The notes under the pieces were generated by a model. That model saw only the letters and a program-made list of their open reading frames with translations, ran no database searches and had not been told where the DNA came from. DNA of 48,461 nt, from the NCBI GenBank assembly GCA_903856295.1, contig CAIOBP010000209.1:1-48461 (forward strand), written 5' to 3'. Both the position numbers and the translations under genes were made by a program. Of the stretch, positions 3,327 through 28,210 are shown in pieces; within the stretch, counting starts at the first letter, position 1, and every line of letters begins with the position of its first letter. The DNA comes from an uncultured Rhodospirillales bacterium (GTDB taxonomy: Bacteria; Pseudomonadota; Alphaproteobacteria; Azospirillales; Azospirillaceae).

Positions 3327-6041
3327 TCAGCAGTCGGTTCGATAGTCCCGCAGGTCCACCTGTGTGTCCGCGATCCGCCTTGCCTCGAGGAGGACCATCG
3401 GCAGTTGGTCGGCAACCTCGGCACAAACCGCGCTTGTAAGCCGAAGATCGCCGTCCTCGGCGGCTTTTTGCAGGGCCTCGGCGGCGGCGGCCAGTGATTT
3501 CGCGCCGATATTGGCGGCCACCCCTTTAAGATCATGGGCCTTTTTGGCGATATCGTACAGGGCGCCCCCGGCCAGCAGCTCCGTAAGCACGCCTGCGGCA
3601 TCGCCATAGCTGTTCATGAACTCGACCATGACCAGCTTGAGCAGCTTCTGGTCGCCGATGGTTCTGGTGATGGCGTCCTTGATGTCGATGGCCACAAGGG
3701 CGGGTGCCGACGCCGGATGCTCCCGCCGGTAATGACGGGCGTGGCGGCTGATCGCCGCCGTCATCTGCGCCACGACGAACGGTTTGCCGATATGATCGTT
3801 CATGCCGGCGGCAAGGCATTGCTCGCGATCGGACGCCATGGCGTTGGCGGTCATGGCGATGATCGGCAACGCCGTCAAGCCGAGATCGCGACGGATCGCC
3901 CTGGTCGCATCATAACCATCCATGCCGGGCATCTGGATGTCCATCAACACGGCGTCGAACCGGGTCGGACCGGCGCTCAACACCTCCAGCGCCTTGATGC
4001 CATCGACGGCGATCGTCACCCCCGCCCCGGCGGCTTCCAGAATGCGGCGGGCGACCATCTGGTTGATGCTGTTATCCTCGACCACCAGCAGCGTGAGACC
4101 GGCCAGCGGCGCGCTCGGCGCGACTTGGACCGGCACCGGCGCGACACCGGAGGCCGGGCCGGAGCGGATTTCGCCGACGGCATCGAGCAGGCTCGACGGC
4201 GTCACCGGCTTGGTCAGAACCGCCCGGATCAGCGGTTCATCGCCGGAATCCCGCCGGACCCGGTCATATTCATAGGCCGTGACCACCAGGATCAGCGGAA
4301 TGGTCTCCGGCGGCTGGCGGGCCTTGAGGTGGCGGACGATCTCGCGGCCGCCGATTTCCGGCATCACCCAGTCGAGCAACAGCAGATCGAACGGCACGCC
4401 GCCATGCGCCCGATCGATTTCCTCCAGCGCCTGCGCGCCGGACGCCGCCACCACCACCGTCCAGCCGAAGGACCCGATCATGGCGGCCATGATTTCCCGG
4501 GCGATCGGATTGTCGTCGGCGATCAGCACCTTGAGACCGCGCGGCACGACGGGCGACGCCATCGGCTCTCCGGCGGCATCCTGCGACCGGCCCAGCCGGA
4601 TGGCGACGTGGAACGTGCTGCCCCGCCCCAGTTCGCTCTCGCACCAGATGCGGCCGCCGGCCAATTCGACCAAACGGCGACAAATGGCCAGCCCGAGCCC
4701 GGTGCCGCCGAAGCGGCGGGTGGTGGTGACATCGGCCTGGGAGAAGGCGTCGAAGATCACCTCCCGATGCTCGGACGCGATGCCGATGCCGGTGTCGCGG
4801 ACGCTGAACAGCAAGTCGGCACACTCGTCATCGACCGCCGTCGCCCGCACCGACAGCACCACCTCGCCGCGCTCGGTGAACTTGATGGCGTTGCCGGCAA
4901 GGTTGGTCAGCACCTGCTGCAAACGCAGCGCATCCCCGACCAGGGACAGCGGCGTGCCCGGCCGGATGTCGAACAGAACCTCGATGTCCTTGTCGCGAGC
5001 ATTGGCGGCGGCGATCACCGCCAGCGATTTCATCAGATCATCAAGCCGGAACGGCTCGATGTTCATGTCAAGCTTGCCGGCCTCGACCTTGGAAAGATCG
5101 AGAATGTCATTCAGAAGGCCAAGCAGGGACTGCGCCGAGATCCGGGTCTTCTGAACATAGTCGCGCTGATGCGGGCTGAGCTTGGTCTGCTCCAGCAGAT
5201 AGGCCAATCCGAGAATCGCGTTCATCGGCGTCCGGATCTCGTGGCTCATGTTGGCGAGAAAGGCCGACTTGGTGCGGCTGGCGGATTCGGCGGCATCCCT
5301 GGCCACCACCAGCCTGCCCGTGGTTTCCTGGACCCGGTCGAGCATCCCGTCGAAGGCGCGGGCCAACTGGCCGAACTCGCTTTCGTCGGAGGAGCGCAGG
5401 CGGAACGCGTGATCGCCCGCCGCCACCGTGTGGAGCGCCCCGGTCAGCATCGCGAGCGGTTTCAGCACGGCCCGCCGCACCAGCACGATGGTCACCGCCG
5501 GCAACCCGAGCAGAATCAGGATGGAGGCGACGACGACGAACTCCCTCAACTGGTCAACCTGCCGCGTCCTGGCCAGCAGAGGCTGCGTCAACTCCTCGAC
5601 ACCGGCCGCCAGGGCGGCGCCGCGCATCAGGAACAGGCTGGTCATCTGACGCTCCCGCTCCTGCTGCAAAGGGTTGAGGTTTTTTTGCGCGAACACCGCC
5701 AGCAGCGCCTCGCACTCGCCGAGGCGGTTGAAGGCGTTCCGCCACTGCGCCATCGGCGCATCCGGCTGGAATTCGGGCGAGGCTCGCAGCCGGTCGAACA
5801 GCGGATGCAGCGCCCGCACCATCTTTTCCGCCTGAATCCGGGGCCGCTCCTCGCGATAGAGCGCGAATTCGAAGCCCACCGTCCGCAAATCGCCAACCTT
5901 GCCGCGAATGGCGTAAACGGTCTCGAGTTCGCTGGTGACTTCATCCTGAGCGGTGTTGGCCCACAGAATCAGCGCCGACAACAGCACACTGAGCCCAACG
6001 AACAACCCGGTGATAAGATAGGCGCGCTTCTGAAGAGACAT
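3327..6041 (-). CDS. Hybrid histidine kinase (HAMP-HisKA-HATPase-REC-REC-HPt)
   Basis: 904 aa. Membrane helices lie at about 8-27 and 168-188 with a helical periplasmic region between them, then HAMP. The HisKA motif NMSHEIRTP has the phospho-His at 267. The ATPase N box (NLAGNAIKF), G1 (DTGIGI) and G2 (GGTGLGLAI) follow. REC1 is at about 502-625 (Asp557 in LLLDWVMP), REC2 at about 648-765 (Asp701 in LMDIQMPGMDG), and a C-terminal HPt domain has AHDLKG (His836). The full relay sits in one protein, and no output regulator is encoded beside it. The start at 6041 was chosen because the protein begins naturally there (MSLQKR before the first helix) and it lies 4 nt after the stop of the binding-protein gene. 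No strong ribosome-binding site is visible, so translational coupling is likely. Confidence 0.9.
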   Translation of the reverse strand: MSLQKRAYLITGLFVGLSVLLSALILWANTAQDEVTSELETVYAIRGKVGDLRTVGFEFALYREERPRIQAEKMVRALHPLFDRLRASPEFQPDAPMAQWRNAFNRLGECEALLAVFAQKNLNPLQQERERQMTSLFLMRGAALAAGVEELTQPLLARTRQVDQLREFVVVASILILLGLPAVTIVLVRRAVLKPLAMLTGALHTVAAGDHAFRLRSSDESEFGQLARAFDGMLDRVQETTGRLVVARDAAESASRTKSAFLANMSHEIRTPMNAILGLAYLLEQTKLSPHQRDYVQKTRISAQSLLGLLNDILDLSKVEAGKLDMNIEPFRLDDLMKSLAVIAAANARDKDIEVLFDIRPGTPLSLVGDALRLQQVLTNLAGNAIKFTERGEVVLSVRATAVDDECADLLFSVRDTGIGIASEHREVIFDAFSQADVTTTRRFGGTGLGLAICRRLVELAGGRIWCESELGRGSTFHVAIRLGRSQDAAGEPMASPVVPRGLKVLIADDNPIAREIMAAMIGSFGWTVVVAASGAQALEEIDRAHGGVPFDLLLLDWVMPEIGGREIVRHLKARQPPETIPLILVVTAYEYDRVRRDSGDEPLIRAVLTKPVTPSSLLDAVGEIRSGPASGVAPVPVQVAPSAPLAGLTLLVVEDNSINQMVARRILEAAGAGVTIAVDGIKALEVLSAGPTRFDAVLMDIQMPGMDGYDATRAIRRDLGLTALPIIAMTANAMASDREQCLAAGMNDHIGKPFVVAQMTAAISRHARHYRREHPASAPALVAIDIKDAITRTIGDQKLLKLVMVEFMNSYGDAAGVLTELLAGGALYDIAKKAHDLKGVAANIGAKSLAAAAEALQKAAEDGDLRLTSAVCAEVADQLPMVLLEARRIADTQVDLRDYRTDC

Positions 6042-6045
6042 GACG

Positions 6046-7023
6046 TTACCGAATGATGGTGACGGCCGAGGGCAGCACCACGTCGAGCACCGAGCTATCG
6101 AAATAGTCCAGATAGTTGGGCACCTTCCCTCCGCCACCGATGCCGTTGAGGATTGCCCAGCGGGCTTGGTTCTCCAGCGACACGATCAAGACCTGATCGA
6201 GGCTGAGCGCATGGCGATAATTATCCCACAACGACGCCATGACCGTCTCGTCGATCTTGAGCCGGCGCGCCGCCAGGGCGATCGCCTCGGCACGATGGCC
6301 GTGGATCCACTCGATCGTCCGCTCGGTCGCGCGCAACAGCCGTTGCGCGACGAGCGGGCGCTTTTGCACAAAATCCCGTCCCACAGCGAAATTGAAGGTC
6401 TCCTCATGGCGGTCTTTTTCATAAGGAATGAGCAGCGCCCGGTCCCCCAGCGCGGCCTGGGCGAAGTATCCATGGGGATCGAAGGCGGCGATCGCGTCGA
6501 CGCGGTGATTGACGACGGCGTCGGCGGAGTCTCCAGCCGGCACATCGACCTCGATGATTTCGGACGGCGCCAACCCGAGATCGGCCAGCACCGAGTGCAA
6601 AAAGAACTGCGAGGTCGTCCCGGCCATCACCCCGATCCGATGACCGCGCATGTCCGCCGGGGCGCGAATGCCGTCAAGCCGGTCGGCCACCAGCCGGTAG
6701 GGCGTGTTGTGGGAGAAGGTGGCGATGACCACGAAGTCGCGCCGCTTGAAGCTCTGCATCACGATCGGGGTGTCGGCGACCGTCGCCACATCGACCTCGC
6801 CACGCAGCATGGCTTCGAGCGCCAATTTTCCGGCGGGCCAGGACTTGGTCGCGACATCCAGCCCCTCGTCCCGGTAGAAGCCTTTTTCCAGGGCGATGAG
6901 GGTCGGGATATCGCCAGCGTTCTCGGCGACGCCCAGAATAAGGCGCTCCGCTCCAGGTCCCGCCCAGGCCGCCCCGCCGGAGAGGCCGGCTAATAAGACC
7001 AGCAAACACAATACCGGTTTCAT
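6046..7023 (-). CDS. Periplasmic substrate-binding protein, NMT1/SsuA-like
   Basis: 325 aa with a signal peptide (MKPVLCLLVLLAG, cleavage near AWA at 21). The mature part resembles the NMT1/SsuA/TauA class: LILGVAENAGDIPTLIALEKG at the start, then DVATVADTPIVM and IGVMAGTTSQFFL, as in sulfonate, nitrate and thiamine-precursor binding proteins. GGGAGG stands 7 nt before the ATG. No permease or ATPase gene is nearby. The next gene, 4 nt downstream, is a hybrid histidine kinase with a small periplasmic domain. The protein may therefore present its ligand to the kinase rather than to a transporter (inference). The ligand is unknown. Confidence 0.8.
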   Translation of the reverse strand: MKPVLCLLVLLAGLSGGAAWAGPGAERLILGVAENAGDIPTLIALEKGFYRDEGLDVATKSWPAGKLALEAMLRGEVDVATVADTPIVMQSFKRRDFVVIATFSHNTPYRLVADRLDGIRAPADMRGHRIGVMAGTTSQFFLHSVLADLGLAPSEIIEVDVPAGDSADAVVNHRVDAIAAFDPHGYFAQAALGDRALLIPYEKDRHEETFNFAVGRDFVQKRPLVAQRLLRATERTIEWIHGHRAEAIALAARRLKIDETVMASLWDNYRHALSLDQVLIVSLENQARWAILNGIGGGGKVPNYLDYFDSSVLDVVLPSAVTIIR

Positions 7024-7106
7024 GATGCGACCTCCCTCGTTTCTTGGCCCTATCGATAAAGCTTCTCCCGCCCATCTTCAAGGAAACACGAGAGCAGGAT
7101 GTGAAA

Positions 7107-9002
7107 CTACCCGAGAGAAGGACCCGGAAACCGGAAACGACGACGGGCGAAACTTGCCGAAATCGGTGCCCGGTTCTGCTCCTCGAAGAGTTCCGCCAGC
7201 TTCTCGACCATGGCGCCGCCGAGTTGATCGACATCATTGATGGTGACGGCACGACGATAATAGCGGGTAACGTCGTGACCGATGCCGATGGCCAGCAGTT
7301 CCACCGGCGAATAGCGCTCGATATCCTCGATCACCTGCCGCAAATGCTTCTCCAGGTAATTGCCCGGATTGACCGAAAGCGTCGAATCATCCACCGGCGC
7401 GCCATCCGAGATCACCATCAGAACCCGCCGCTGCTCGGGCCGGGCGTGCAGGCGGCCATGCGCCCACAGCAACGCCTCGCCGTCGATGTTCTCCTTGAGG
7501 ATGCCCTCGCGCAGCATCAGGCCGAGATTCTTGCGGGTCCGGCGCCAGGGAACGTCGGCGCCCTTGTAGATGATGTGGCGCAGATCGTTGAGCCGTCCCG
7601 GCTGGGCCGGCTTGCCGGCGGCCAGCCAGCGGGTGCGCGCCTCGCCGCCCTTCCAGGCCTTGGTGGTGAAGCCGAGGATTTCGACCTTGACGCCGCAGCG
7701 CTCCAGGGTGCGCGCCAGGATATCGGCGCTGAGCGCGGCGATGGTGATCGGCCGGCCGCGCATCGAGCCGGAATTGTCGATCAGCAACGACACCACGGTG
7801 TCGCGGAACTCGGTGTCGCGCTCTTGCTTGAACGACAGCGGCACCATGGGATTGACCACCACCCGCGCCAGCCGTCCGGCATCGAGGATGCCCTCCTCCA
7901 GATCGAAATCCCAGGACCGCTGCTGCTGGGCCATCAGCCGCCGCTGCAAGCGGTTGGCCAGCCGGGCGATCACCCCGTGCAGGTTCTTGAGCTGGGTGTC
8001 GAGCATCGCGCGCAACCGCGACAATTCCTCGGCATCGCACAGCTCGGCGGCGTCGATCTCCTGATCATGCTCGGCGGTGTAGATGCGATACGGATCGCGC
8101 TCCGGCTCCGGCGCACGCTGACCGGCCTGACGCCGCGGGCCGGAGGGCTGGGTTTCATCGGCGCAGCCGGCTTCCCCGCCCTCGCCATCGAGATTTTCGT
8201 CGTCCTCGGCCGAGGTCTCGGCCTTGTCCTCGCCGTCGGCCATCATGCCGGACAACGACTGGGCATCCTGTTCGCCGCTGTCGTCGGCGGCGCTGTCGCC
8301 GTCCTCGCTCTCGTCTTCCTGGCGCTTGGCGTCGTCGTCCTCGTCCGGGTCGGGACGGGGCTCGGGCTCGCCGCCGATCTCGAAGCCCAGATCGACCAGC
8401 AGCCGGCGCACGCCACGGGCATAGGCGTCCTGGTTCTCCAGGCGGGAGGCCAGACCGTGCCAGTCGGCGCCCAGCTTTTCCATCAGCCAGGGCCGCCACA
8501 GCTCCACCGCCGGCCGCGCCGGCTCGGGCACCGGACGACCGTGAAGAACCTCCCAGGACAGCGCCCGGAGAATCTCGGCCAGCGGCGCCTGCTCGCGCTC
8601 GGTGACCTTGTCCAGCCCCTGGCGCTGGCAGCGCTCGACCATCGCGGCGCCGAGATTGGCGGCGACACCGGGCATGTCGCGCGCGCCCAGCGCCTCGCAG
8701 CGCACCTGTTCCAGGGCGTCGAAGACCATGCGCGGCATGTCGCCGGCCGGCATGCGGTTGGCGTGAATCACCGGATCGTGGTGACGCAGCCGCAAGGCCA
8801 CGGCGTCGGCGCTGCCCCGCGCCGCCGCCACCGCCGCTGGATTGAGATCGCGCGGCGGTGGTGGCACCCGCACGCGCAGGCCGATCACCGCCGCCGGCTC
8901 GTTGCTGAACCCGACCTGAATGTCCTCACGCTCGGCCAACGCCCGCACCACCGCCGCCGTCGACCGCTTGAACACATCCAACGGGCTTTCCGTTTCGTTC
9001 AC
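7107..9002 (-). CDS. cobT: Cobaltochelatase subunit CobT
   Basis: 631 aa, the usual size for CobT. It is part of the ATP-dependent cobaltochelatase (CobNST) that inserts cobalt into hydrogenobyrinic acid a,c-diamide in the aerobic B12 pathway. The middle (about 210-300) is a long Asp/Glu-rich linker. The C-terminal von Willebrand A domain has the metal-site motif DNSGSMRG and later SDGAPVDDS, with a conserved region ([21 protein letters not shown]) typical of CobT. The start is GTG at 9002, preceded by GGGGAAGG, and overlaps the stop of the upstream gene as GTGA, so the two are translationally coupled. It is the last gene of the operon that contains cobS. Confidence 0.93.
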
Positions 9003-17178: not shown

Positions 17179-17419
17179 CGCCCCCGTCATTCCGCCCGAG
17201 GACTATGACGAGATTCCGGAAGTGACCGAGGAGATGTTCGCCCGCGGACAACTCATGCGCGCCGGCCGCCCGGTTCGGCTGGGCAGACCGCCCAAACCAG
17301 TCGTCAAAAAGCCGACGACGATCCGCCTCGACCCGGATGTGCTCACCTACTTCAAGAGCACGGGGCCTGGATGGCAATCGCGAATCAACGAGACCCTGCG
17401 CAAGGCGGCGGGGCTGTGA
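17132..17419 (+). CDS. brnA: BrnA-type antitoxin
   Basis: 95 aa, intact. The N-terminal part binds and neutralises BrnT. The C-terminal part (VKKPTTIRLDPDVLTYFKST then GPGWQSRINETLRKAA) is the BrnA ribbon-helix-helix DNA-binding domain that represses the operon. The gene overlaps brnT's end and is translated from within it. Its last 35 nt overlap the 3' end of hydE on the other strand. With the toxin frame broken, the antitoxin is the only intact product here. Confidence 0.85.
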   Translation: MSGSKHDLSGGLAQADAPVIPPEDYDEIPEVTEEMFARGQLMRAGRPVRLGRPPKPVVKKPTTIRLDPDVLTYFKSTGPGWQSRINETLRKAAGL

Positions 17420-18512
17420 CCGTACTCCCCGTACGCTTGCCGAAATGGCGAGGATCGCCCCAGCTGTTCCAGCCGACCCGGCGGCCGCAGGCCAGCACGC
17501 TGCGCTCCAGCCCCTCGCGGGACTGGGCGGGGACCTGATCGATGCCGGGCTTGCCCTGATAGAGCTGGTAGTTCTTGCGCATTTCCTGGGGCGTGAGATT
17601 GGGCATGGCGACGTTGGCGCCGAAGGCGATGCCACGCTCCCGGCCATTCTTTGCCAGAGCTTCGAGGGCGGTGGTCGAGGCGATGTTGACATCGCGCAGC
17701 GCGAGCCGGGTCACCGCGATCATCTTGAGCGCCAGTTGCAGCAGCGGTTCGGACTCCATCATGCCGGCATCGAACATGGCGCTGCCCGAGGCGACGATGT
17801 ACGGCCCCATGCCGATCATATCGATATCGCGGCTGGCGAAGAAGCGGATGTCGGCGGCGAGATCGGCCAGGGTCTGGCCCGGCAAACCGATCATCACCCC
17901 GGTGCCGACCTGATAGCCGGCCTCCTTGAGATCGTCGAGCGCCCGCGTCCTGCTCTCGAAGCGCTGGCTGCCGGGATGAATGCGCGCGAACAGCTCGGAG
18001 TTGGCGGACTCGATGCGCAGCAGGTAGCGGTGGGCGCCCGCCGCCTTCCAGCGCCGGTAGGTCTGAAGGCTCTGCTCGCCAAGGGACAGGGTGATGCCCA
18101 GCCCCTGGGGCAGCGCCGGCGAAACCGAGCGCGCCTTGATCTCGGCGACGCACTCCTCGATGAAAGCGATGTATTTTGCGTCGCGCCGCTCGCCCGATTG
18201 CAGCACGCAGGAGCCGAAACCGGCCTGCCCCGACCATAAGGCGGCCTCGACCACCTCCTCTTTGCTCAGACAATAGCGCTCGACCTCGCGATTGCCCTTG
18301 CGAATACCGCAATAATGGCAATCGAGCGCACAGATGTTGGAAACCTCGACCAGCCCACGATAATGGACGGTATCGCCGACCTCGGCGGTGGTCAGGTCGT
18401 AGGCGGCCTGGCGCAGCGCCTCGATCTGCTCGGGATCGGTGAGCGACAGCAGGCGCAGCAGGTCGGTGCCGGAAAAGCTGGTCTGGGCCAGCAGCGACGC
18501 GAGATCATTCAT
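17385..18512 (-). CDS. hydE: [FeFe]-hydrogenase maturase HydE (radical SAM)
   Basis: 375 aa. HydE acts in building the dithiolate-bridged 2Fe subcluster, acting on the HydG product. The radical-SAM cluster motif is CALDCHYC (C61, C65, C68). Other HydE features are VEVSNICALDCHYCGIR, GSCVLQSGER, GITLSLGEQS, RYLLRIES, GTGVMIGLPGQT and GPYIVASGSAMF. The ATG at 18512 overlaps the hydF stop by 8 nt and is preceded by GGAGGG. The family's usual end is near GDPRHFGKR; here about 13 further residues, read antisense to the brnA 3' end, follow before the stop. It is the last gene of the hydrogenase operon. Confidence 0.93.
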   Translation of the reverse strand: MNDLASLLAQTSFSGTDLLRLLSLTDPEQIEALRQAAYDLTTAEVGDTVHYRGLVEVSNICALDCHYCGIRKGNREVERYCLSKEEVVEAALWSGQAGFGSCVLQSGERRDAKYIAFIEECVAEIKARSVSPALPQGLGITLSLGEQSLQTYRRWKAAGAHRYLLRIESANSELFARIHPGSQRFESRTRALDDLKEAGYQVGTGVMIGLPGQTLADLAADIRFFASRDIDMIGMGPYIVASGSAMFDAGMMESEPLLQLALKMIAVTRLALRDVNIASTTALEALAKNGRERGIAFGANVAMPNLTPQEMRKNYQLYQGKPGIDQVPAQSREGLERSVLACGRRVGWNSWGDPRHFGKRTGSTVTAPPPCAGSR

Positions 18513-19770
18513 GCTCCAGCCCTCCGGGCGGCCATGCTCCAGCCCTCCGGGCGGCCATGTACGCCTCGTACGCCGCCGGGAAAGGCTGCAAGGCGCGCTC
18601 GAAAATGCCGAGGCTGAAGGCGATGGTCAGGCCGTAATTGGTGATCGGCACGCCGGCCGCCTTGGCCTTGAGAATGCGGTTGAGCATCTCCTTGCGGTTG
18701 AAGGAGCAGGCGCCGCAATGGATGATCAGCTTGAACTCCGACAGATCGGCCGGATAATCCTTGCCCGCCATCACCGTGATATCGAGCTTACCGCCGACAT
18801 ACTGGGTCAGCCAGCGCGGAATCTTGACCCGGCCGATATCCTCGCCGATCGGATGGTGGGCGCAGGCCTCGGCGATCAGCACCTTGTCGCCGGCCTTGAG
18901 GCTGTCGATGGCCATGGCGCCCAGGGTCTGGCTGACCAGATCGCCCTTGAAGCGCGAAAACAGAATGGAAAAGCTGGTCAGCGGCACCTCGGGCGGGGTG
19001 TCGGCCGCGACCTTGAGGAAGGCCTGGGAGTCGGTGACCACCAGCTTGGGCGGACTTTTCAGCTGGTCGAGCGCCGAGCGCAGCTCCCGCTCCTTGACCA
19101 CCATGCAGTAGGCGTCATTGTCGAGCAGGTCGCGGATCGACTGGACCTGGGGCATGATCAGCCGGCCCTTGGGCGCCTCCTTGTCGATCGGCACCACCAG
19201 CACCGCCATGTTGCCCGGCCCGACCAGATCGCCGACGATATCCGGGCTGGCGATGAAATCGGCCGGGGCGTGATCGACCAGAGCATGGCGCAGATCGAGA
19301 ATCCCCTCCCCGCGCGCCGCCGCCATACGCAGGTATGGCAGCTTGGCATCGGCCAGCGCCGCCAGGATTTCCGCTGGCGGCTCGGCAAGGTCGCACTTGT
19401 TGAGCACCACGATCACCGGGGTCTTGCGCTCGGCCAGGGCCTCCGCGATGGCGCGCTCGTACGCGCCCCAAATGCCATCGGTGACGATGATGCCCAAATC
19501 CGTACGCTCGAAGGCCGTACGCGTCTTGGCTACCCGCAACGCGCCGACCGTGCCCTCGTCGTCGATGCCCGCCGTGTCGATGAACACCACCGGGCCGATG
19601 GGCAGCAATTCCATCGGCTTCTCCACCGGATCGGTGGTGGTGCCGGCGAATTCCGAAACGATGGAAACCTGCTGCCGGGTAATGGCGTTCAGGAGGCTCG
19701 ACTTGCCGACATTGCGCCGGCCGAAGATGCCGATGTGCAGGCGCAGGCTGCGGGGGGCGTTTTGCATCAT
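18505..19770 (-). CDS. hydF: [FeFe]-hydrogenase maturase HydF (GTPase scaffold)
   Basis: 421 aa. HydF is the GTPase and scaffold that carries the 2Fe subcluster and delivers it to HydA. The P-loop is GRRNVGKSS (17-25), with DTAG at 65-68 and NKCD further on. The C-terminal [4Fe-4S] site has the family pattern: C303-A-H305, then HCGAC with C352 and C355. The start at 19770 overlaps the aspA stop as ATGA. The last nine residues come from a second copy of a 23-bp duplication (18511-18556) read in another frame. Without it the protein would end MAARRAGA. Confidence 0.94.
   Translation of the reverse strand: MMQNAPRSLRLHIGIFGRRNVGKSSLLNAITRQQVSIVSEFAGTTTDPVEKPMELLPIGPVVFIDTAGIDDEGTVGALRVAKTRTAFERTDLGIIVTDGIWGAYERAIAEALAERKTPVIVVLNKCDLAEPPAEILAALADAKLPYLRMAAARGEGILDLRHALVDHAPADFIASPDIVGDLVGPGNMAVLVVPIDKEAPKGRLIMPQVQSIRDLLDNDAYCMVVKERELRSALDQLKSPPKLVVTDSQAFLKVAADTPPEVPLTSFSILFSRFKGDLVSQTLGAMAIDSLKAGDKVLIAEACAHHPIGEDIGRVKIPRWLTQYVGGKLDITVMAGKDYPADLSEFKLIIHCGACSFNRKEMLNRILKAKAAGVPITNYGLTIAFSLGIFERALQPFPAAYEAYMAARRAGAWPPGGLEHE
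18511..18556. repeat. 23-bp tandem duplication at the hydF/hydE junction
   Basis: Two exact copies (18511-18533 and 18534-18556). Each contains, on the minus strand, the Shine-Dalgarno GGAGGG followed by an ATG. Because 23 is not a multiple of three, it shifted the hydF frame. The stop that overlapped the hydE ATG was replaced by one a few bases further on. Confidence 0.95.
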
Positions 19771-21224
19771 GGTTTGACTTCCGGACTGCCAAGGCGGCAC
19801 ACCGCCTCGGGAGAGATAAGGGCCTCGAAGGCGCCGTCGTCAAGCAGGCCGCCCTCGATGACGAGAGAACGGATCGAACGGCCCGTACGTGCCGCCTCGG
19901 CGGCCACCCGCCCGGCCGCCTGATAGCCAAGGGCGGGCAGCAGCGCCGTGGCCACCGCCGTCGCGCCCTCGACCGTACGCTTGCAGCGTTCGGCATCGGG
20001 CTCAAGGCCGTCGACGCACAGCCGGGCGAGTATGTCACAAGCATTCGCGAGTAAGTCGACGCTGGTCAGCAGTGCGTCGGCGATCAACGGCAGGAAGGGG
20101 TTGAGTTCCAGCGAGCCCATGGACGCGGCCGAGGCAATCGCCTGATCGTGGGCGCAGACCATCAGCGCCGCCTGGGTCACCGCCTCGGGGATCACCGGAT
20201 TGACCTTGCCCGGCATGATGCTGGAGCCGGCCTGCCGCGCTGGCAGGCGGATTTCACCGAACCCGGCATCCGGCCCCGAAGACAACAGGCGCAAATCCCC
20301 GGATATTTTTATGAGATTGACCGCGCAGGCTTTCAGAATTCCCGACACTTCCACGAACACGTCGGCGTTCTGGGTCGCCTCGACCAGATTTTCCGCCCGC
20401 GCCAGCCCGACCCCGGAAATCTCGCGCAAGGTATCGACCACCCGGAAGATGTACTGGCGCGGCGCCGCCAGCCCGGTGCCGATGGCGGTGCCACCGAGAT
20501 TGACCACCCGCAACCGCTCGACGCATTTGTAAACCCGCCAGCGGTCACGGTTGACCGCCTCGGCGTACGCCCCCATTTCGCGGCCGAGGGTGGTGAGGAC
20601 GGCATCCTGGTACTGTGTACGCCCAACCTTGACCACCCCTTCCAGCCGCTTTTCCTGGGCCTGAAAACTCTCCTGGAGCCGGACCAACCGTTCCTCGAGC
20701 CGGCCGATGCCCTTGATCGCCGCCAGCTTCAGCGCCGTCGGATAGGTGTCGTTGGTCGACTGATAGCGGTTGACGTCGTCGAGGGGCGAAATCAACTCGT
20801 ACCGCCCCGGCGCCTCGCCGAGCAGCAGCAGCGCCCGGTTGGCGATCACCTCGTTGACATTCATATTGAGGCTGGTACCGGCACCGCCTTGCAGGGCGTC
20901 GACACCAATGTGCCGGTCGAGCAGTCCCTCGGACAGCTCGAGGCAGGCGCGCTCCATGGCCTCGGCGCGCTCCGGGGCATCCCGCCAGCCGCCAAGGCCG
21001 CGAATGGTCCGCAGCGCCGCCAGCTTGACTTGGCCGAAGGCGCGGATCAACCCGCCATGGACCGGCCGCCCCGAGAGCGGGAAATTCTCCAGCGCCCTCA
21101 GGGTATGAATGCCGTGGAGGCAATCAGCCGGCAGGGCACGCGCCCCGAGTTGGTCGCTCTCGGTGCGCGTGCCGATCCCCGTCAAGGCCCCGGCCTCAAC
21201 GCCGGCCTCAACGGTAGACGTCAC
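19767..21224 (-). CDS. aspA: Aspartate ammonia-lyase (aspartase) in the maturase operon
   Basis: 485 aa from the GTG at 21224. The reaction is L-aspartate to fumarate plus ammonia. Aspartase/fumarase-class features are GIHTLRALENFPLSG near the start, NMNVNEVIANRA, STNDTYPTALKLA, GRTQYQDAVLTTLG and the lyase signature GSSIMPGKVNP. The GTG overlaps the hydG 3' end by 17 nt and has AAGG upstream; a TTG at 21185 is another option. Its stop overlaps hydF. aspA genes recur in [FeFe]-hydrogenase maturation operons elsewhere. One suggested role is to supply ammonia for the bridging amine of the H-cluster, but this is not shown here. Confidence 0.88.
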   Translation of the reverse strand: MTSTVEAGVEAGALTGIGTRTESDQLGARALPADCLHGIHTLRALENFPLSGRPVHGGLIRAFGQVKLAALRTIRGLGGWRDAPERAEAMERACLELSEGLLDRHIGVDALQGGAGTSLNMNVNEVIANRALLLLGEAPGRYELISPLDDVNRYQSTNDTYPTALKLAAIKGIGRLEERLVRLQESFQAQEKRLEGVVKVGRTQYQDAVLTTLGREMGAYAEAVNRDRWRVYKCVERLRVVNLGGTAIGTGLAAPRQYIFRVVDTLREISGVGLARAENLVEATQNADVFVEVSGILKACAVNLIKISGDLRLLSSGPDAGFGEIRLPARQAGSSIMPGKVNPVIPEAVTQAALMVCAHDQAIASAASMGSLELNPFLPLIADALLTSVDLLANACDILARLCVDGLEPDAERCKRTVEGATAVATALLPALGYQAAGRVAAEAARTGRSIRSLVIEGGLLDDGAFEALISPEAVCRLGSPEVKP

Positions 21225-22602
21225 GCTTGCCTTCTTTGACCTTGCCGACCATGATTCTGGAATGCTTGGCCGGAGTCTCGGCCATATCATTGATGAAGGT
21301 CTCGATGGCCTTCTCGCCGATCGCCCGTGACTCGTCGGTGCCGTAATCCATCAGATATTCCTGGAAGGTCGAGGCGGCGTTGGGGTCGCAATGGGCCTTG
21401 ATGTCGCCGGGCTTGGCCATATCCATGAAATCGGCGCCGGTCCGGCCCAGGCGATAGCAACCGGTGCAGAAGGACGGCACGTAGCCGAGGCTGGCCACGT
21501 CGCAGATCACCTCGTCGAGATTGCGGTGATCGCCGAGGGAGAACTGGCTGGCGTCCTCGCGGGCGCTCTCGGCATAGCCGCCGGGATTGGTGCGGCTGCC
21601 CGCGGAAATCTGCGACACGCCCAAGGCAAAGGTCTCGCGGCGCAGATTGGCGGTCTCGCGGGTCGACATGATGATGCCGGTGTAGGGCACGGCGATGCGC
21701 AGGATGGCCACGATCTTGCGGAAATCCATGTCGCCCACCGGATGGGGCGGGTGCTCGGCGATCGAAGCGCCGGTCGCCGGCTCCAGACGCGGCACCGAGA
21801 TGGTGTGAGGGCCGACGCCGAACGCCGCCTCCAGGTGGCGAATGTGCTGCATCAGCGCCAGCATCTCGAAGCGCCAGTCGGCCAGACCGAACAGCACCCC
21901 AATGCCGCAATCATCGATGCCGGCAGTCATGGCGCGGTCGATCGCCCGCAAACGCCAATGATAATCAGCCTTCTTACCAGCAATATGGACATTGCCATAG
22001 GTCTCGTGATGGTACGTTTCCTGGAACAGCTGATAGGTTCCGATCTTCGCCGCCTTGAGCTGGGCGAACTCTTCGGTTTTCAGCGGCGCGATGTTGACAT
22101 TGACCCGACGAATTTCGCCATTGCCATGCTTGACCGAATAGACCGTGTCGATGGCGTCGAGAATATACTGGAAGCCCTTGACCGGATAGGATTCGCCAGC
22201 CACCAGCAACACCCGCTTATGCCCCTGGTCGATCAGAATCCGGGTCTCGCGGGCGATTTCCTCCGAGGTCAGCGCCCGGCGCTCGACTTCCTTGTTGCGA
22301 GCGCGGAAGGCGCAATACAGGCACTCGTTGGCACACAAATTGGACACATAGAGCGGCGCGAAGATCACCAGCCGGCGACCATAAATGGTGTCCTTGATGT
22401 GGCGGGCGACTTCGAACAACTCCGAGATCAGGGTCGGATCGCTGAGCGCCATCAGCGGCGCGATCTCTTCGGCATCCAGCCCCTTCATCTCGCGGCCCTT
22501 GGCCAGAATCTCGCGGATACGGCCGCTATCGCACGCGGAAGCCGCAGCCAGAGTGTTCCAGATCACGGATTCATCGATGTCGAAACTATTGGAATCGGTC
22601 AC
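21208..22602 (-). CDS. hydG: [FeFe]-hydrogenase maturase HydG (tyrosine lyase, radical SAM)
   Basis: 464 aa. HydG cleaves tyrosine to p-cresol and supplies CO and cyanide on an Fe-cysteine synthon. The radical-SAM cluster motif is CANECLYC (C90, C94, C97). The auxiliary cluster ligands are in the C-terminal SFCTGCYRLGRTG and the later HCDPNAAST, giving the expected three Cys. GEIRRVNVNIAPLKTEEF, LFQETYHHETY and GIGVLFGLADWRFE are typical HydG. The start is GTG at 22602, preceded by GAGG with 7 nt spacing, 9 nt after the upstream kinase gene stops. Confidence 0.95.
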   Translation of the reverse strand: MTDSNSFDIDESVIWNTLAAASACDSGRIREILAKGREMKGLDAEEIAPLMALSDPTLISELFEVARHIKDTIYGRRLVIFAPLYVSNLCANECLYCAFRARNKEVERRALTSEEIARETRILIDQGHKRVLLVAGESYPVKGFQYILDAIDTVYSVKHGNGEIRRVNVNIAPLKTEEFAQLKAAKIGTYQLFQETYHHETYGNVHIAGKKADYHWRLRAIDRAMTAGIDDCGIGVLFGLADWRFEMLALMQHIRHLEAAFGVGPHTISVPRLEPATGASIAEHPPHPVGDMDFRKIVAILRIAVPYTGIIMSTRETANLRRETFALGVSQISAGSRTNPGGYAESAREDASQFSLGDHRNLDEVICDVASLGYVPSFCTGCYRLGRTGADFMDMAKPGDIKAHCDPNAASTFQEYLMDYGTDESRAIGEKAIETFINDMAETPAKHSRIMVGKVKEGKRDVYR

Positions 22603-22611
22603 GATTGCGCC

Positions 22612-23922
22612 TCAAACTGACTGGAGTGACGGGGTGCCGACGGTCGCCGCGACCGACAGTCCCACGGGAATGCTGAAGGAAAACAGGGCCCAGGAGCCCA
22701 GTTCGGAGTCCGCCCAAATCCGGCCCTCATGGAGTTGGACGATTTTCCAGCAGGTATACAACCCAAGACCGGTGCCCTTGCGCCGGATCAACTCGGGGGT
22801 GTTCTGGCGAACGAAACGCTGGAACAGGTTGGACCGCTTCTCGGGCGGAAAACCGGGGCCTTCGTTCCAGACCGAAACCTCGCCCTGCCCGCCCTCGACC
22901 GTGAGGGCGATGCGAATCCGGCCAAGCTCGCGGCCATACTTCAGGGCGTTGCCGAGCAGATTGACCAGCACCACCCGCAGCAACTCGGAGTTTCCCGAAG
23001 CGGACACCGGTTCCTCGGGCACCACGACCTCAAGCTTCATGCGTCGTCCCTCGATCTGACCGTGCAGCAGGTCGATGGCGGGCCGGATCACCTCGTCGGC
23101 CAGGCTGGGGATGTCCAGCATGGTCGGCGCGGCCTCGGCATTTTCGACCTTCGCCAGATCAAGATAGGTCTCGATGAAGCCGATCAAGTACTGACCGTTA
23201 TAAGCGATGCGCTCAATTTTCTGCCGCTGTTGGGGCGTGATCTCGCCGACATAGCCGTCGCACAGCAGGCGGGCGTTGGTAACCATTGATGCGACTGGGT
23301 TTTTTAGCTCGTGCGCGACGAAGCCCAGCACTTCCTGGTAGGCCCGGTTGACGGTCTCGAGCTGCTCGATGCGATAGGCTTTTTCGGCCGCCTGGGAGAG
23401 CCGCTCGGCGATCGCCTGCTGCAAACCGACGTGATGCCCCTCATAGGCGTTGGCCTCGGCGGCATTGAAGAACAGCGCGCCGATCGGGCGGTCGTCGACC
23501 ACCAGCGGACAGGTCATCGAAGACTTCAGACCCTCGCGCAAAATCATCGCGGTGGAAGCGCTGTGAGGATGCCCGGCGTGATAGGCCTCAAGATCGTTGA
23601 TCACCCGGGGCCGGCCTTGACGGATCACCGCTTCCAGTGAGCTGCCTTTGAGGTCCTGGGCGAACCCCTTGTTCAGATAAACCTGGGGACACCGGCTGAC
23701 CGCATGATAGCTGACCAGCCGCCGCCCCTTCTCTTCGATAAAGGCGAGACCGATGCGGTCGCAAGGCAAGCAGGGAGAAAGCGACTGGAGCAAAAAATCT
23801 ATCAGTTCAACAATCGAATTGTGCGATGCCGCGCGCCGGTTGATCTCATCAATAACCTGACACTCAATCTGACTAAACTCCGCCCCCGACTCAGCAGGTA
23901 TGATGTAATTCAGGACAACCAT
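22612..23922 (-). CDS. GAF-domain sensor histidine kinase within the hydrogenase operon
   Basis: 436 aa, no membrane helix. A GAF domain spans about 28-180, starting INRRAASHNSIVELIDFLLQ and ending IGALFFNAAEANAY. It contains a CxxC pair (C51 and C54 in SPCLPC) that could make it redox- or metal-sensitive (inference). The HisKA motif is FVAHELKNPV with the phospho-His at 204. The ATPase domain has NLLGNALKYG, NEGPGFP and GTGLGLYTCW. It lies between hydA and hydG on the same strand with 9 nt to hydG, so it is made with the hydrogenase. The receiver protein at 27839-28210 is the obvious partner. A poor ribosome-binding site and the stem-loops upstream may keep its level low. Confidence 0.88.
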   Translation of the reverse strand: MVVLNYIIPAESGAEFSQIECQVIDEINRRAASHNSIVELIDFLLQSLSPCLPCDRIGLAFIEEKGRRLVSYHAVSRCPQVYLNKGFAQDLKGSSLEAVIRQGRPRVINDLEAYHAGHPHSASTAMILREGLKSSMTCPLVVDDRPIGALFFNAAEANAYEGHHVGLQQAIAERLSQAAEKAYRIEQLETVNRAYQEVLGFVAHELKNPVASMVTNARLLCDGYVGEITPQQRQKIERIAYNGQYLIGFIETYLDLAKVENAEAAPTMLDIPSLADEVIRPAIDLLHGQIEGRRMKLEVVVPEEPVSASGNSELLRVVLVNLLGNALKYGRELGRIRIALTVEGGQGEVSVWNEGPGFPPEKRSNLFQRFVRQNTPELIRRKGTGLGLYTCWKIVQLHEGRIWADSELGSWALFSFSIPVGLSVAATVGTPSLQSV

Positions 23923-24048: not shown

Positions 24049-25977
24049 TCAGGCGATAAACTTGCCGCGCGGGGTATAGGTGGTATGCAGCAACTTGTGA
24101 GACTTGTGGCTGCACGGTCCCTCAGGCAGGAAGTCTTTGTAAACCTCCCAGACCTGCGGGTTTTCATGGGACTTGCGGACGGCGTAGCCCGCATCTTCGT
24201 CGTAGATCGCCTTGGCCCGCTTGGCGCGGATTTCCGGGCTGGTCGGGATCGGCTGGCCGCCGCCACCGAGACAGCCGCCGGGGCAAGCCATGATCTCGAT
24301 GAAGTGGCAGGTGCTGAACGGTCCGCCGGCCTTGATGTCTTCCATGATCTTGCGAGCATTCGCAGTGCCATGGCCGACACCGACGCGCAGGGTGGCGCCC
24401 TTCAGCCAGTTCCAGTCGGTCAGCAGATGCTTGAGAATGTCGGGCACCGGGCCGACTTCGGTGATCGGCAATTCGACGATGCGCACACCCTCGAAGCCGC
24501 GAACCGGGATGATGTCGGCATGGTCGTAGAAATTCTCGACCTTCTTGCCGGTGACCAGTTCGATCACCGTGCGCAGCGCCGCTTCCATCACGCCGCCGGT
24601 GGCGCCGAAGATGACGCCGGAGCCGGTGGCGGTGCCGAACGGGTCGTCGAAGTCGGTCTTGGAGAGCTTGGGCAGATCGATGCCGGCCTCCTGGACCATC
24701 TTGGCGAGTTCGCGGGCGGTCAGACCGAAATCGACGTCCTTGAAACCACTGTCGCACATTTCGGGGCGGTTGCACTCGAACTTCTTGGCGGCACACGGCA
24801 TCAGCGCGACCGACACGATGTCCTTGGGATCAATACCCTTGCGCGCGGCGTAATGGGTCTTGATCAGGGCGCCGAACATCTGCTGCGGGCTCTTGGCCGT
24901 CGACAGATGACCCAGCATATCGGGATAGAAATGCTCGATATACTTGATCCAGCCCGGTGAGCAACTGGTGATCTGGGGCAGCATCACCGACTTGTCACCA
25001 CCGACCAGCGCCTTGTAAAGACGCAGGATCAGTTCGGTGCCTTCCTCGATGATCGTGAGGTCGGCGGTGAAGTTGGCGTCGAACACAGCGTCGAAGCCGA
25101 TGCGCTTGATCGCGGTGTTCATCTGGAAGGTGACCGGCGTGCCGGGCTCCAGGCCGAAAGCCTCACCGATCGAAGCGCGCGGCGCCGGCGCGGTCTGGAT
25201 CACCACATGCTTGGTCGGATCGTCGAGCATCGCCCAAACGTCGTCGGTCTGGTCGAGTTCGCTCAGCGCGCCGGTCGGGCAGCGGTTGATGCACTGGCCG
25301 CAATTAATGCACACCACCGAAGCCAGCGGCTTGTCGGCGAAGGTCGTGACCTGGGACTCCGCACCCCGGCCCTCGACGGCGAGACAGCCGACTTCCTGAA
25401 CGTCGGTGCAGGTCCGCACGCAGCGGCGGCACAGCACGCACTTGTTCATATCGCGAACGATCGAGCTGCTGGTGCGGTCGATCTCATACCTCGGCTTATC
25501 GGGATGACCGAAGCGGAAGTAATCGACACCATATTCCTTGGCCAGCGACTGCAATTCGCAATTGTTATTACGCTTGCAGGTGTAGCACTCGCCATAGTGA
25601 TTGGCGAGATGCAGATCGATGATATGCCGGCGCGCCTTGCGCACCGCCGGAGTCGTGGTGTGAATCTTGATCGGCTGGCTGATCGGATAGGCGCAGGACG
25701 CCTGAAGGTTGCGCTGCCCCTCGACCTCGACCACGCAAATCCGGCAGACGCCGGCGGTGCAGAGATCGGGGTGCGAACACAGGGTCGGGATACGCAACCC
25801 GATCTTCTTGGCGGCATCGAGAATGGTGGTCCCGAGTGGAACCTTCACATCGTTGCCGTCGATGTTAACGGTGACGGAAGCGCCGATGGCGTCGGCGGTG
25901 GTGTCGATGTCGATACGGTGTCCCCTCTCGCTGACCGGGGCACGACTGGTATCGGAGCTGAAAGGCTTGGTGCACAT
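24049..25977 (-). CDS. hydA: [FeFe]-hydrogenase catalytic subunit HydA (group A3-like)
   Basis: 642 aa. It reduces protons or oxidises H2 at the H-cluster. From the N-terminus: a [2Fe-2S] domain (C67, C78, C81, C95), a His/Cys [4Fe-4S] motif (NHYGECYTCKRNNNC, about 127-140), and two [4Fe-4S] ferredoxin motifs (CVLCRRCVRTC at 180-190, CINCGQCINRC at 223-233). The H-cluster loops are L1 TSCSPGW (C339), L2 MPCAAKKFE (C394) and L3 MACPGGC (C565, C569). L1 with CSP, and the NuoF-like partner, point to the NAD-linked multimeric A3 group. The start at 25977 was chosen because GAGG lies 9 nt before it; 25998 is an alternative. It follows hydB by 40 nt. Confidence 0.95.
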   Translation of the reverse strand: MCTKPFSSDTSRAPVSERGHRIDIDTTADAIGASVTVNIDGNDVKVPLGTTILDAAKKIGLRIPTLCSHPDLCTAGVCRICVVEVEGQRNLQASCAYPISQPIKIHTTTPAVRKARRHIIDLHLANHYGECYTCKRNNNCELQSLAKEYGVDYFRFGHPDKPRYEIDRTSSSIVRDMNKCVLCRRCVRTCTDVQEVGCLAVEGRGAESQVTTFADKPLASVVCINCGQCINRCPTGALSELDQTDDVWAMLDDPTKHVVIQTAPAPRASIGEAFGLEPGTPVTFQMNTAIKRIGFDAVFDANFTADLTIIEEGTELILRLYKALVGGDKSVMLPQITSCSPGWIKYIEHFYPDMLGHLSTAKSPQQMFGALIKTHYAARKGIDPKDIVSVALMPCAAKKFECNRPEMCDSGFKDVDFGLTARELAKMVQEAGIDLPKLSKTDFDDPFGTATGSGVIFGATGGVMEAALRTVIELVTGKKVENFYDHADIIPVRGFEGVRIVELPITEVGPVPDILKHLLTDWNWLKGATLRVGVGHGTANARKIMEDIKAGGPFSTCHFIEIMACPGGCLGGGGQPIPTSPEIRAKRAKAIYDEDAGYAVRKSHENPQVWEVYKDFLPEGPCSHKSHKLLHTTYTPRGKFIA

Positions 25978-26017
25978 TCGAATAATACCTCGAAGCATTG
26001 GAGCGATCTCGCTAAGG

Positions 26018-27718
26018 TCAGTGGGACGCCTCGATCGGGCGGGCCATAATCTCGTCCCGGAAGTGCTTGTTGATCGCCAACAAAATCTTCGGGCTTGACT
26101 GGCCAAGGCCGCACTTGGACGCCAACTTGATGGTCTCGCCGAGGCCGATCAGTTCGTTCAGGTAACGGGTTGAGCATTTTCCTTTGAGCAGCAACTGGAT
26201 GCCTTCCAGCATCTTGACATTGCCGTCGCGGCAGGGGGTGCACTGGCCGCAGGATTCTTCGACGAAGAACTCCAGATAGTTTTCCGCGATCTCGAGCAAG
26301 TCGCGCTCCTGACCGTAGACGATCACCGAGCCGCCGATGCCCAGATCCTCGTAACCGAGGACGCGGCCGAACTCGCTGGCCGGGACCAGTTCGCCCGAAT
26401 AGCCGCCGGCCTGAATCGCCTTGGCGCCCTCACCGCCGACCAGGGCCAGCAGTTGCTCAAGGGTGGTGCCCCAGGGCAGTTCGTAGACACCGGGACGGGT
26501 GCAGTCGCCCGAAACCGAGAACAGCTTGAAGCCCTTCGAGCGCTCGGTGCCGATCGCCCCGAACCACTTGGAGCCGCGATCGAGGATGACGCTGATGGTG
26601 GCCAGGGTCTCGACGTTGTTGACCACGGTCGGCTTGCCGTTGAAGCCGGTGTCGACCGGATAGGGCGGCCGGTTGCGCGGCTCGCCGCGATGCCCTTCCA
26701 GCGACTCGATGAGCGCGGTTTCCTCGCCGCAGATGTAGGCGCCAGCACCCATGCGGATGCGGATGTCGAAATTGAAGCCTTCCTTGCCGAGAATGTTGCT
26801 GCCGAGCAGGCCGGCCTTGCGCCGCGCCTCGATCACCTCTTCCAGATGCGCCCGGACATAGGTGTACTCACCACGCAGATAAATGATGCCCTCGCGCGCG
26901 CCCACCGCATAAGCGGCGATGGTCATGCCCTCGAACACCAGATCCGCGTACTGGGTCAGGATGACGCGGTCCTTGAAGGTGCCGGGTTCGCCTTCATCGG
27001 CGTTGCAAATAATGTACTTGGTGTCGGCCTTGGCCGACGCCGCCAGATTCCATTTGGTGCCGGTGGGGAAGCCGGCGCCGCCGCGACCACGAACGCCGGA
27101 CGCGGTGACTTCGCCGATGACCTCGCTGCGGCTCCGGGCCAGCGCCTTCTTCAGGCCGGAATTGGCCTGATGGCTGGCATAGGTCAACGTATTGGTGAAG
27201 GTGTCGCCAACCTTGCCGATGGTCGGACGGTGGGAGCGAAACTCCTCGCCGCAATCCTCGATGATCCGGTGCACGCGCTGGGGGGTCAAGTTCGAGAAAA
27301 TCTCGTTATTGACCATCATCGCCGGCGCTTGATAATTCATGCCGATGCAATTGGTCCATTCGAGCGTGAACATGCCGTCCGGAGTGGTTTCTCCGAACTT
27401 GATGCCCAGGTCGTTTTCCAGCTGCCGGGCCACAACCTTGGCGCCCTTCATGATCGAGGACATGTCGCGGCTGAGACGAATGATGAACTTGCCCTTGGGC
27501 TTGGTATTGATGAACTGGTAGAAGGTCGCGACGCTGTAAACCTCGGCCGCATGAATTCCCAGCAAATCGGCGACATGCTGCATGGCGAACTCGGAAACAT
27601 AACCGTAGTCCGCCTGTACCGCCTGGAGAATTGGAATCAGCGCCGAGCGCTGGTGGGCGTGCTTCTCCGTAAGCTGGGAGATGAGCGCCTTCTCCTTTTC
27701 CTGTTCAGTCAGCAACAT
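26018..27718 (-). CDS. hydB: Hydrogenase diaphorase subunit HydB (degenerate NuoE fused to NuoF)
   Basis: 566 aa. Residues 1 to about 150 form a NuoE-like thioredoxin fold (ADYGYVSEFAMQHVADLLGI, VATFYQFI, GETTPDGMFTLE). The four [2Fe-2S] ligand positions read Ser83, Ser88, Cys124 and Asn128, so the cluster cannot bind in the usual way. The NuoF part (about 165-560) looks intact: FMN/NAD site GRGGAGFPTGTKW, NADEGEPGTFKDR and GAGAYICGEETALIESLEG, and the [4Fe-4S] ligands in SCGQCTPC and SKCG. It should move electrons between NAD(H) and HydA. There is no separate HydC gene here and no C-terminal ferredoxin extension. GGAAGGA precedes the ATG. Confidence 0.92.
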   Translation of the reverse strand: MLLTEQEKEKALISQLTEKHAHQRSALIPILQAVQADYGYVSEFAMQHVADLLGIHAAEVYSVATFYQFINTKPKGKFIIRLSRDMSSIMKGAKVVARQLENDLGIKFGETTPDGMFTLEWTNCIGMNYQAPAMMVNNEIFSNLTPQRVHRIIEDCGEEFRSHRPTIGKVGDTFTNTLTYASHQANSGLKKALARSRSEVIGEVTASGVRGRGGAGFPTGTKWNLAASAKADTKYIICNADEGEPGTFKDRVILTQYADLVFEGMTIAAYAVGAREGIIYLRGEYTYVRAHLEEVIEARRKAGLLGSNILGKEGFNFDIRIRMGAGAYICGEETALIESLEGHRGEPRNRPPYPVDTGFNGKPTVVNNVETLATISVILDRGSKWFGAIGTERSKGFKLFSVSGDCTRPGVYELPWGTTLEQLLALVGGEGAKAIQAGGYSGELVPASEFGRVLGYEDLGIGGSVIVYGQERDLLEIAENYLEFFVEESCGQCTPCRDGNVKMLEGIQLLLKGKCSTRYLNELIGLGETIKLASKCGLGQSSPKILLAINKHFRDEIMARPIEASH

Positions 27719-27838: not shown

Positions 27839-28210
27839 TCAGCTTCCCAGCAGCTTCTTGACCTTTTCGATAAGAACGGCCGGATACACGGGCTTGGATA
27901 CGAAATCATTGACCGGGAGCATTTCCCCGTCCTTGTCATATTCCCGCCCGGTAACCTTGCCAATGCTGGACAAGGCGATAATCGGGAACGTGTGCCCGGC
28001 CTTGCGCAACTCGCGGGCGAGAACGATGCCGTCGTCCGGACCATCCATCATGATGTCGAGCACCAACAGATCCGGCGCTGCCCGGTTGATCTCGGCGAGA
28101 CCACGGTCGGCATTGTTCGCAACCCGAACCGTATGCCCTTCCCTTTCCAGAACCAGTTTGCCGGCGTCGGTGACATCCGGATCATCATCAACAAGCAAGA
28201 TATTGGCCAT
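27839..28210 (-). CDS. Single-domain response regulator heading the hydrogenase operon
   Basis: 123 aa, receiver domain only. The acidic pocket is at VDDD (8-10), the phospho-acceptor is Asp52 in LVLDIMMDG, the switch Ser is in ALSS and Lys106 is in VSKPV. There is no DNA-binding domain, so it must act through another protein, either as a CheY-like effector or a phosphorelay carrier. AGGAG lies 6 nt before the ATG. It is first in the hydrogenase transcription unit, 120 nt before hydB. The histidine kinase at 22612-23922 is its likely partner. What it controls (hydrogenase activity, a downstream regulator, or the MCP across the gap) is unknown. Confidence 0.88.
   Translation of the reverse strand: MANILLVDDDPDVTDAGKLVLEREGHTVRVANNADRGLAEINRAAPDLLVLDIMMDGPDDGIVLARELRKAGHTFPIIALSSIGKVTGREYDKDGEMLPVNDFVSKPVYPAVLIEKVKKLLGS

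Follow-up and report, generated by a model that had tools for sequence, protein, structure and literature searches.

Complex I carries its N1a-type [2Fe-2S] cluster off the main electron chain (PMC6560083; PMC3898324), about 14 Å from FMN and 19.8 Å from N3, with C86, C91, C127, and C131 as the ligands in NuoE of A. aeolicus (PMC6560083). The role of N1a in complex I is disputed, with assembly or stability (PMC3898324) proposed on one side and gating of NAD+ release on the other (PMC6560083; PMC5562879); mutation of the N1a ligands destabilizes complex I of E. coli and Yarrowia, and does not yield a stable, functional enzyme (PMC3898324). Already known are NuoE–NuoF fusions without N1a (HoxF), a NuoE-type domain with three cysteines (Nyctotherus), and a fused HydB in non-bifurcating HydAB. 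HoxF of soluble [NiFe] hydrogenases (Ralstonia eutropha; Hydrogenophilus thermoluteolus, 5XF9) is reported to lack an N1a-type cluster (PMC3189943; PMC8880783; PMC11647496), and turns over NAD(H) despite the missing cluster (PMC3189943). In the [FeFe]-hydrogenase of Nyctotherus ovalis, a single polypeptide that includes the hydrogenase, the 24-kDa (NuoE-type) domain has lost one ligand (Cys to Trp) (PMC2216082). HydAB of Syntrophus aciditrophicus is dimeric, with a HydB that fuses the gamma and beta subunits, and is biochemically non-bifurcating and NADH-dependent; two [2Fe-2S] clusters are predicted to be kept (PMC7311640), so that its NuoE-type site is presumably intact.

The window analyzed here, a stretch of 48,461 nucleotides from an uncultured Rhodospirillales bacterium, encodes a HydB that shares an incomplete ligand set with N. 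ovalis, although three ligands are lost rather than one; this also sets it apart from S. aciditrophicus HydB. As in H. thermoluteolus HoxF (Val/Asp/Cys/Ser), only the third Cys is kept, but the partner is HydA rather than a [NiFe] hydrogenase plus HoxU. In the open-licence literature, we found no report of a three-ligand loss in an [FeFe] HydB, of its fixation across a clade, or of its independence from HoxF. We regard it as probable that HydAB is a non-bifurcating enzyme that has lost N1a in a single, separate event and has kept its NuoE-like domain as a structural cap. The relevant features of hydB are as follows:

26018..27718, minus strand: hydB, 566 aa, fused NuoE/HydC-like and NuoF-like NADH/FMN subunit (ORF, Pfam, AlphaFold)
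27251..27679, minus strand: NuoE-like domain, residues 14–156 (Pfam PF01257 and AlphaFold)
27470..27472, minus strand: Ser83, first N1a ligand position (Ala in L089) (profile alignment, phmmer)
27455..27457, minus strand: Ser88, second N1a ligand position (profile alignment, phmmer)
27347..27349, minus strand: Cys124, third N1a ligand position, the only ligand kept (profile alignment, phmmer)
27335..27337, minus strand: Asn128, fourth N1a ligand position (profile alignment, phmmer)
26042..27109, minus strand: NuoF-like part, residues 204–559, FMN/NADH fold and SLBB (Pfam, alignment)

The NuoE-like domain, which consists of an N-terminal helical part and a thioredoxin-fold part with an incomplete cluster site, was identified by a match to PF01257 (2Fe-2S thioredoxin-like, NuoE; 155.2 bits, cut-off 24.8). 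An earlier note on this DNA had placed the domain at 27259-27718 (residues 1–153), and its extent is amended here to that of the Pfam match. The note's assignment of the ligand positions to Ser83, Ser88, Cys124, and Asn128 is upheld by profile alignment, in which the four-Cys pattern (C-x4-C ... C-x3-C) is unmatched, and by phmmer, which aligns HydB residues 19–143 with residues 22–146 of A. aeolicus NuoE (6hl2_A) at equal lengths, such that positions 83, 88, 124, and 128 correspond one-to-one to 86, 91, 127, and 131. Because this equal-length match hits the published A. aeolicus ligands, the motif register is sound, and a wrong alignment of the motif, which the note had flagged for checking, is ruled out. 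The absence of three of the four cluster ligands from the NuoE-type domain is thereby confirmed at the level of sequence. The sole Cys in the domain besides Cys124 is C156, which is also carried by the fused four-Cys relatives, and hence is no substitute for a lost ligand. Sequencing error or a pseudogene is ruled out by the occurrence of the same state in five further genomes and by strong purifying selection. We infer that the HydB protein lacks an N1a-type [2Fe-2S] cluster.

Relatives were gathered in one scan of GTDB contigs and from 317 genomes of the order that includes M. molischianum, and the resulting census is a sample. Six alphaproteobacterial [FeFe] HydBs were found, with identities to the HydB of the window of 93% (a congener), 79% (G673), and 74–75% (M. 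molischianum and two near it). The ligand loss is fixed in all six: five have the state SSCN and one (L089) has ASCN, with Ser88, Cys124, and Asn128 invariant. The presence of Ala83 in L089 indicates that Ser83 is not a needed ligand. Cys124 is invariant more widely, in all 31 aligned HydB/HoxF rows. The remaining HydB and HydC proteins of the same [FeFe] clade have four Cys, except for one Omnitrophota HydC (SNCC); the close four-Cys relatives belong to Marinimicrobia, Ignavibacteria, Planctomycetota, and Acidobacteriota. Fused HydBs of Marinimicrobia (L006, L007) retain all four ligands, unlike the HydB of the window, and four ligands are likewise present in Ignavibacteria and others, in which HydC and HydB are separate. 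hydA follows hydB in most loci of these relatives. The Omnitrophota HydC (L033:4414-4902, plus strand), a NuoE-type [FeFe] partner, has lost two ligands (Ser, Asn, Cys, Cys); it is encoded by a separate gene and lies outside the alphaproteobacterial HydB clade. It appears to be a further loss. No other NuoE domain was found in the L033 genome.

The invariance of Ser88, Cys124, and Asn128 in the six HydBs, together with the hyper-conservation of the surrounding loops, would suit a domain that still binds metal, either a [2Fe-2S] cluster or a mononuclear site, through these three residues and perhaps a residue of HydA or of a second HydB; retention of the cluster has been suggested for the three-Cys domain of Nyctotherus (PMC2216082). 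We consider such a site unlikely, given that only one of the four Cys is left, that L089 has Ala83, that the domain has acquired no new Cys, and that the structural look-alike HoxF (Val/Asp/Cys/Ser) has been reported to be cluster-free at this position (PMC8880783).

For the preferred reading, in which N1a was lost, the phylogeny points to a single event. A 68-row tree built from the NuoF part splits the [FeFe] HydBs (21 rows; 98/97) from the HoxFs (98/89), so that the HydB of the window groups outside the HoxF clade; the six alphaproteobacterial HydBs (100/100) nest within the [FeFe] side, where the four-Cys sisters group with them (ten-row set; 96/89). A tree of the NuoE domain with the ligand columns masked also separates the HoxF clade (99/93) from the six HydBs, although its deep forks are weak; a swap of the NuoE domain from HoxF is therefore unsupported. 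The ligands were most likely lost once, at the base (stem) of the alphaproteobacterial HydB clade, and because the trees place this loss on a branch of its own, it looks separate from, and convergent with, the losses in HoxF. The HoxF-like relatives adjoin [NiFe] genes in all five loci tested, and have many degraded ligand states (CDCC, CDCS, SDCC, SDCG, NACS, and NSCS), with the third Cys always kept. Three loci of Flavobacteria (L035, L036, L038) each contain two HoxF-like genes whose ligand sites are degraded (NSCS/NSCN); those of L036 lie in tandem (4483-6228 and 6483-8234), ahead of genes for a HoxU-like protein and a [NiFe] subunit.

The partner subunit is encoded directly after hydB:

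24049..25998, minus strand: hydA, group A6 [FeFe] hydrogenase large subunit (NF040763; start approximate, ATG 25998 or 25977)

HydA matches the NCBIfam model NF040763 ("NADH-dependent [FeFe] hydrogenase, group A6") with 790.8 bits against a cut-off of 765, and the A3 label of the earlier note is replaced by A6. HydA contains the motifs for a [2Fe-2S] cluster, HxxxCxxCxxxxxC, and two [4Fe-4S] clusters, as well as the H-cluster motifs L1 (TSCSPGW), L2 (MPCAAKK), and L3 (MACPGGC). L1 lies at residues 380–386 of ORF 24049-26106, and reads TSCSPGW rather than TSCCPGW; this is ordinary, as it is found in all readable relatives of the [FeFe] clade and in A. woodii HydA1. Non-bifurcating beta subunits are marked by an NADH site with Thr/Ser and Lys/Ser/Ala, by a Tyr close to FMN, and by the lack of GGPSG, and they also lack the C-terminal two-[4Fe-4S] domain (PMC7311640). 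HydB has T247, K249, Y328, and GGYSG (438–442), the corresponding residues of A. woodii HydB being A, M, F, and GGPSG; Y328, in GAGAY, is taken as the Tyr near FMN by comparison with GAGAF of A. woodii HydB. The Pfam layout of HydB also lacks the extra N-terminal thioredoxin [2Fe-2S] domain of bifurcating HydB and the C-terminal two-[4Fe-4S] domain, the protein ending 7 residues past the NADH_4Fe-4S domain. HydAB is best read as a dimeric, NADH-linked enzyme of group A6 that would be non-bifurcating, on the basis of the HydA family match, the signature residues of the beta subunit, and the missing C-terminal ferredoxin domain, rather than of the lost ligands. The earlier note had arrived at a possibly non-bifurcating enzyme by way of the lost cluster; the conclusion stands, but the route does not. 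The fused four-Cys relatives carry the same non-bifurcating signature, as does S. aciditrophicus HydB, which is predicted to keep the N1a-type cluster, and the lost ligands are thus not diagnostic of coupling mode. This serves as a caution that coupling mode is not readable from an N1a-type cluster alone.

The closest solved relative of HydA is HydA1 of the bifurcating HydABC of A. woodii, and the genome contains two four-Cys NuoE domains, from which an A3-like bifurcating HydAB could conceivably borrow the [2Fe-2S] function. These are, however, the complex I NuoE (CCCC) and an FdsB-like NuoE–NuoF fusion (CCCC) of the formate-dehydrogenase type (L003:1387-3090, plus strand, genome contig C56), both parts of other proteins, and they are the only NuoE domains in the genome besides that of HydB. 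With a NuoE domain already correctly positioned in the HydB model, both extra domains of bifurcating HydB missing, and the non-bifurcating residues present, we view borrowing as quite improbable. A NuoE-domain search found no hydC in the window or in the whole genome, in accordance with the earlier note, which had also raised the possibility of a hydC with intact Cys elsewhere. hydC is absent also from the genomes of M. molischianum, G673, G606, and G607; M. molischianum and three further HydB-bearing genomes have one other NuoE domain each, which is four-Cys in the three that were checked. The FdsB-like fusion retains all four ligands, and thus fusion by itself is not tied to ligand loss. HydAB is the sole [FeFe] hydrogenase found in the genome.

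The AlphaFold model of HydB is confident (pLDDT 87.4, pTM 0.89), with pLDDT of at least 73 for every ten-residue block of residues 1–160. The top full-length match among solved structures is HoxF (5xfa/5xf9; TM 0.88, ~547 columns), compared with TM ~0.65 for bifurcating HydB; VIA-align matches for HydB mostly cover the NuoF part only, and so carry little information on the NuoE domain. The model places the NuoE domain correctly, in a predicted HoxF-like arrangement. The domain is followed by the NuoF FMN domain, a short SLBB match, and the NuoF [4Fe-4S] domain (Pfam), in which all ligands of the N3 [4Fe-4S] cluster are retained (C490, C493, C496, C536). A soluble, dimeric HydAB would interconvert NADH/NAD+ and H2, with electrons passing between NADH, the FMN of HydB, the N3-type [4Fe-4S] cluster of HydB, the clusters of HydA, and the H-cluster. 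The NuoE-like domain, without the off-pathway N1a-type cluster, would be retained for a structural purpose, capping the flavin domain. Because N1a is off-pathway in complex I and the main-chain ligand motifs of HydB and HydA are all intact, no new electron route is required, contrary to the different electron path that had been proposed in the earlier note.

The retention of Cys124 may relate to the NADH site. In A. aeolicus, C127 of NuoE forms a hydrogen bond via water to the NuoF peptide E95–S96, and NAD+ release is reportedly controlled by a flip of this peptide (PMC6560083). Cys124 aligns with this water-linked residue, and the corresponding peptide of HydB would be Glu242–Gly243 (E242/G243 matched to E95/S96 by counting from the alignment start, with one gap). 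By analogy with complex I, Cys124 may have an NADH-gating role, and the retention of the third Cys in both HydB and HoxF would fit a function at the NADH site that needs no cluster. Once the cluster was lost, any redox-dependent control that N1a exerts over NAD(H) release would be gone, whereas the packing would be retained; as ligand mutants of complex I are destabilized, the cluster-less HydB domain must have compensated somehow. A more specific version, which we advance tentatively and at somewhat less than even chance, is an [FeFe]-hydrogenase that is N1a-null across its clade, in which the old cluster loop would have settled into a new, hyper-conserved form (RDMSSIMKG ... CIGMN), with Cys124 as a redox-independent part of the NADH switch, convergent with HoxF. 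If true, the N1a-null clade would be a natural test of N1a function: an [FeFe] clade with natural ligand loss stands beside four-Cys relatives, providing matched pairs for the role of N1a in NAD(H) turnover and stability.

The HydB NuoE-like domain is under strong purifying selection and is not a decaying relic. For residues 76–160, dN/dS (Nei–Gojobori) is 0.004–0.064 in the four computable pairs, below that of the NuoF part in each, although the ratios are rough, since the more divergent pairs have almost saturated synonymous sites. Between the window and L004, its congener, identity is 98.8% in residues 76–160, versus 90.6% in the NuoF part. The loss of three ligands might suggest a site decaying under relaxed constraint, which is highly improbable given that conservation is higher in the thioredoxin part than in the catalytic NuoF part and that the ligand state is maintained across genera. 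Fixed ligand loss together with purifying selection supports the proposal of the earlier note that selection maintains the domain, though for something other than a normal [2Fe-2S] cluster.

Downstream of hydA, on the same strand, the locus continues in the following order:

22612..23922, minus strand: histidine kinase between hydA and hydG
21208..22602, minus strand: hydG, H-cluster maturase (TIGR03955, 520 bits)
19767..21290, minus strand: aspartate ammonia-lyase family gene within the maturation cluster (NF008909, 581 bits)
18505..19800, minus strand: hydF, maturation GTPase (TIGR03918, 545 bits)
17385..18512, minus strand: hydE, H-cluster maturase (TIGR03956, 299 bits)

All three H-cluster maturases are thus present (hydG, hydF, hydE). 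The aspartate ammonia-lyase family gene overlaps both hydG and hydF, which suggests that it is co-expressed with the hydrogenase maturases. A single-domain response regulator (27839-28210, minus strand) lies just upstream of hydB, and may form a regulatory pair for the hydrogenase with the histidine kinase. In a survey of alphaproteobacterial [FeFe] hydrogenases, a NuoE-like protein of P. molischianum was named HoxS (PMC4967309); this is probably the HydB described here.
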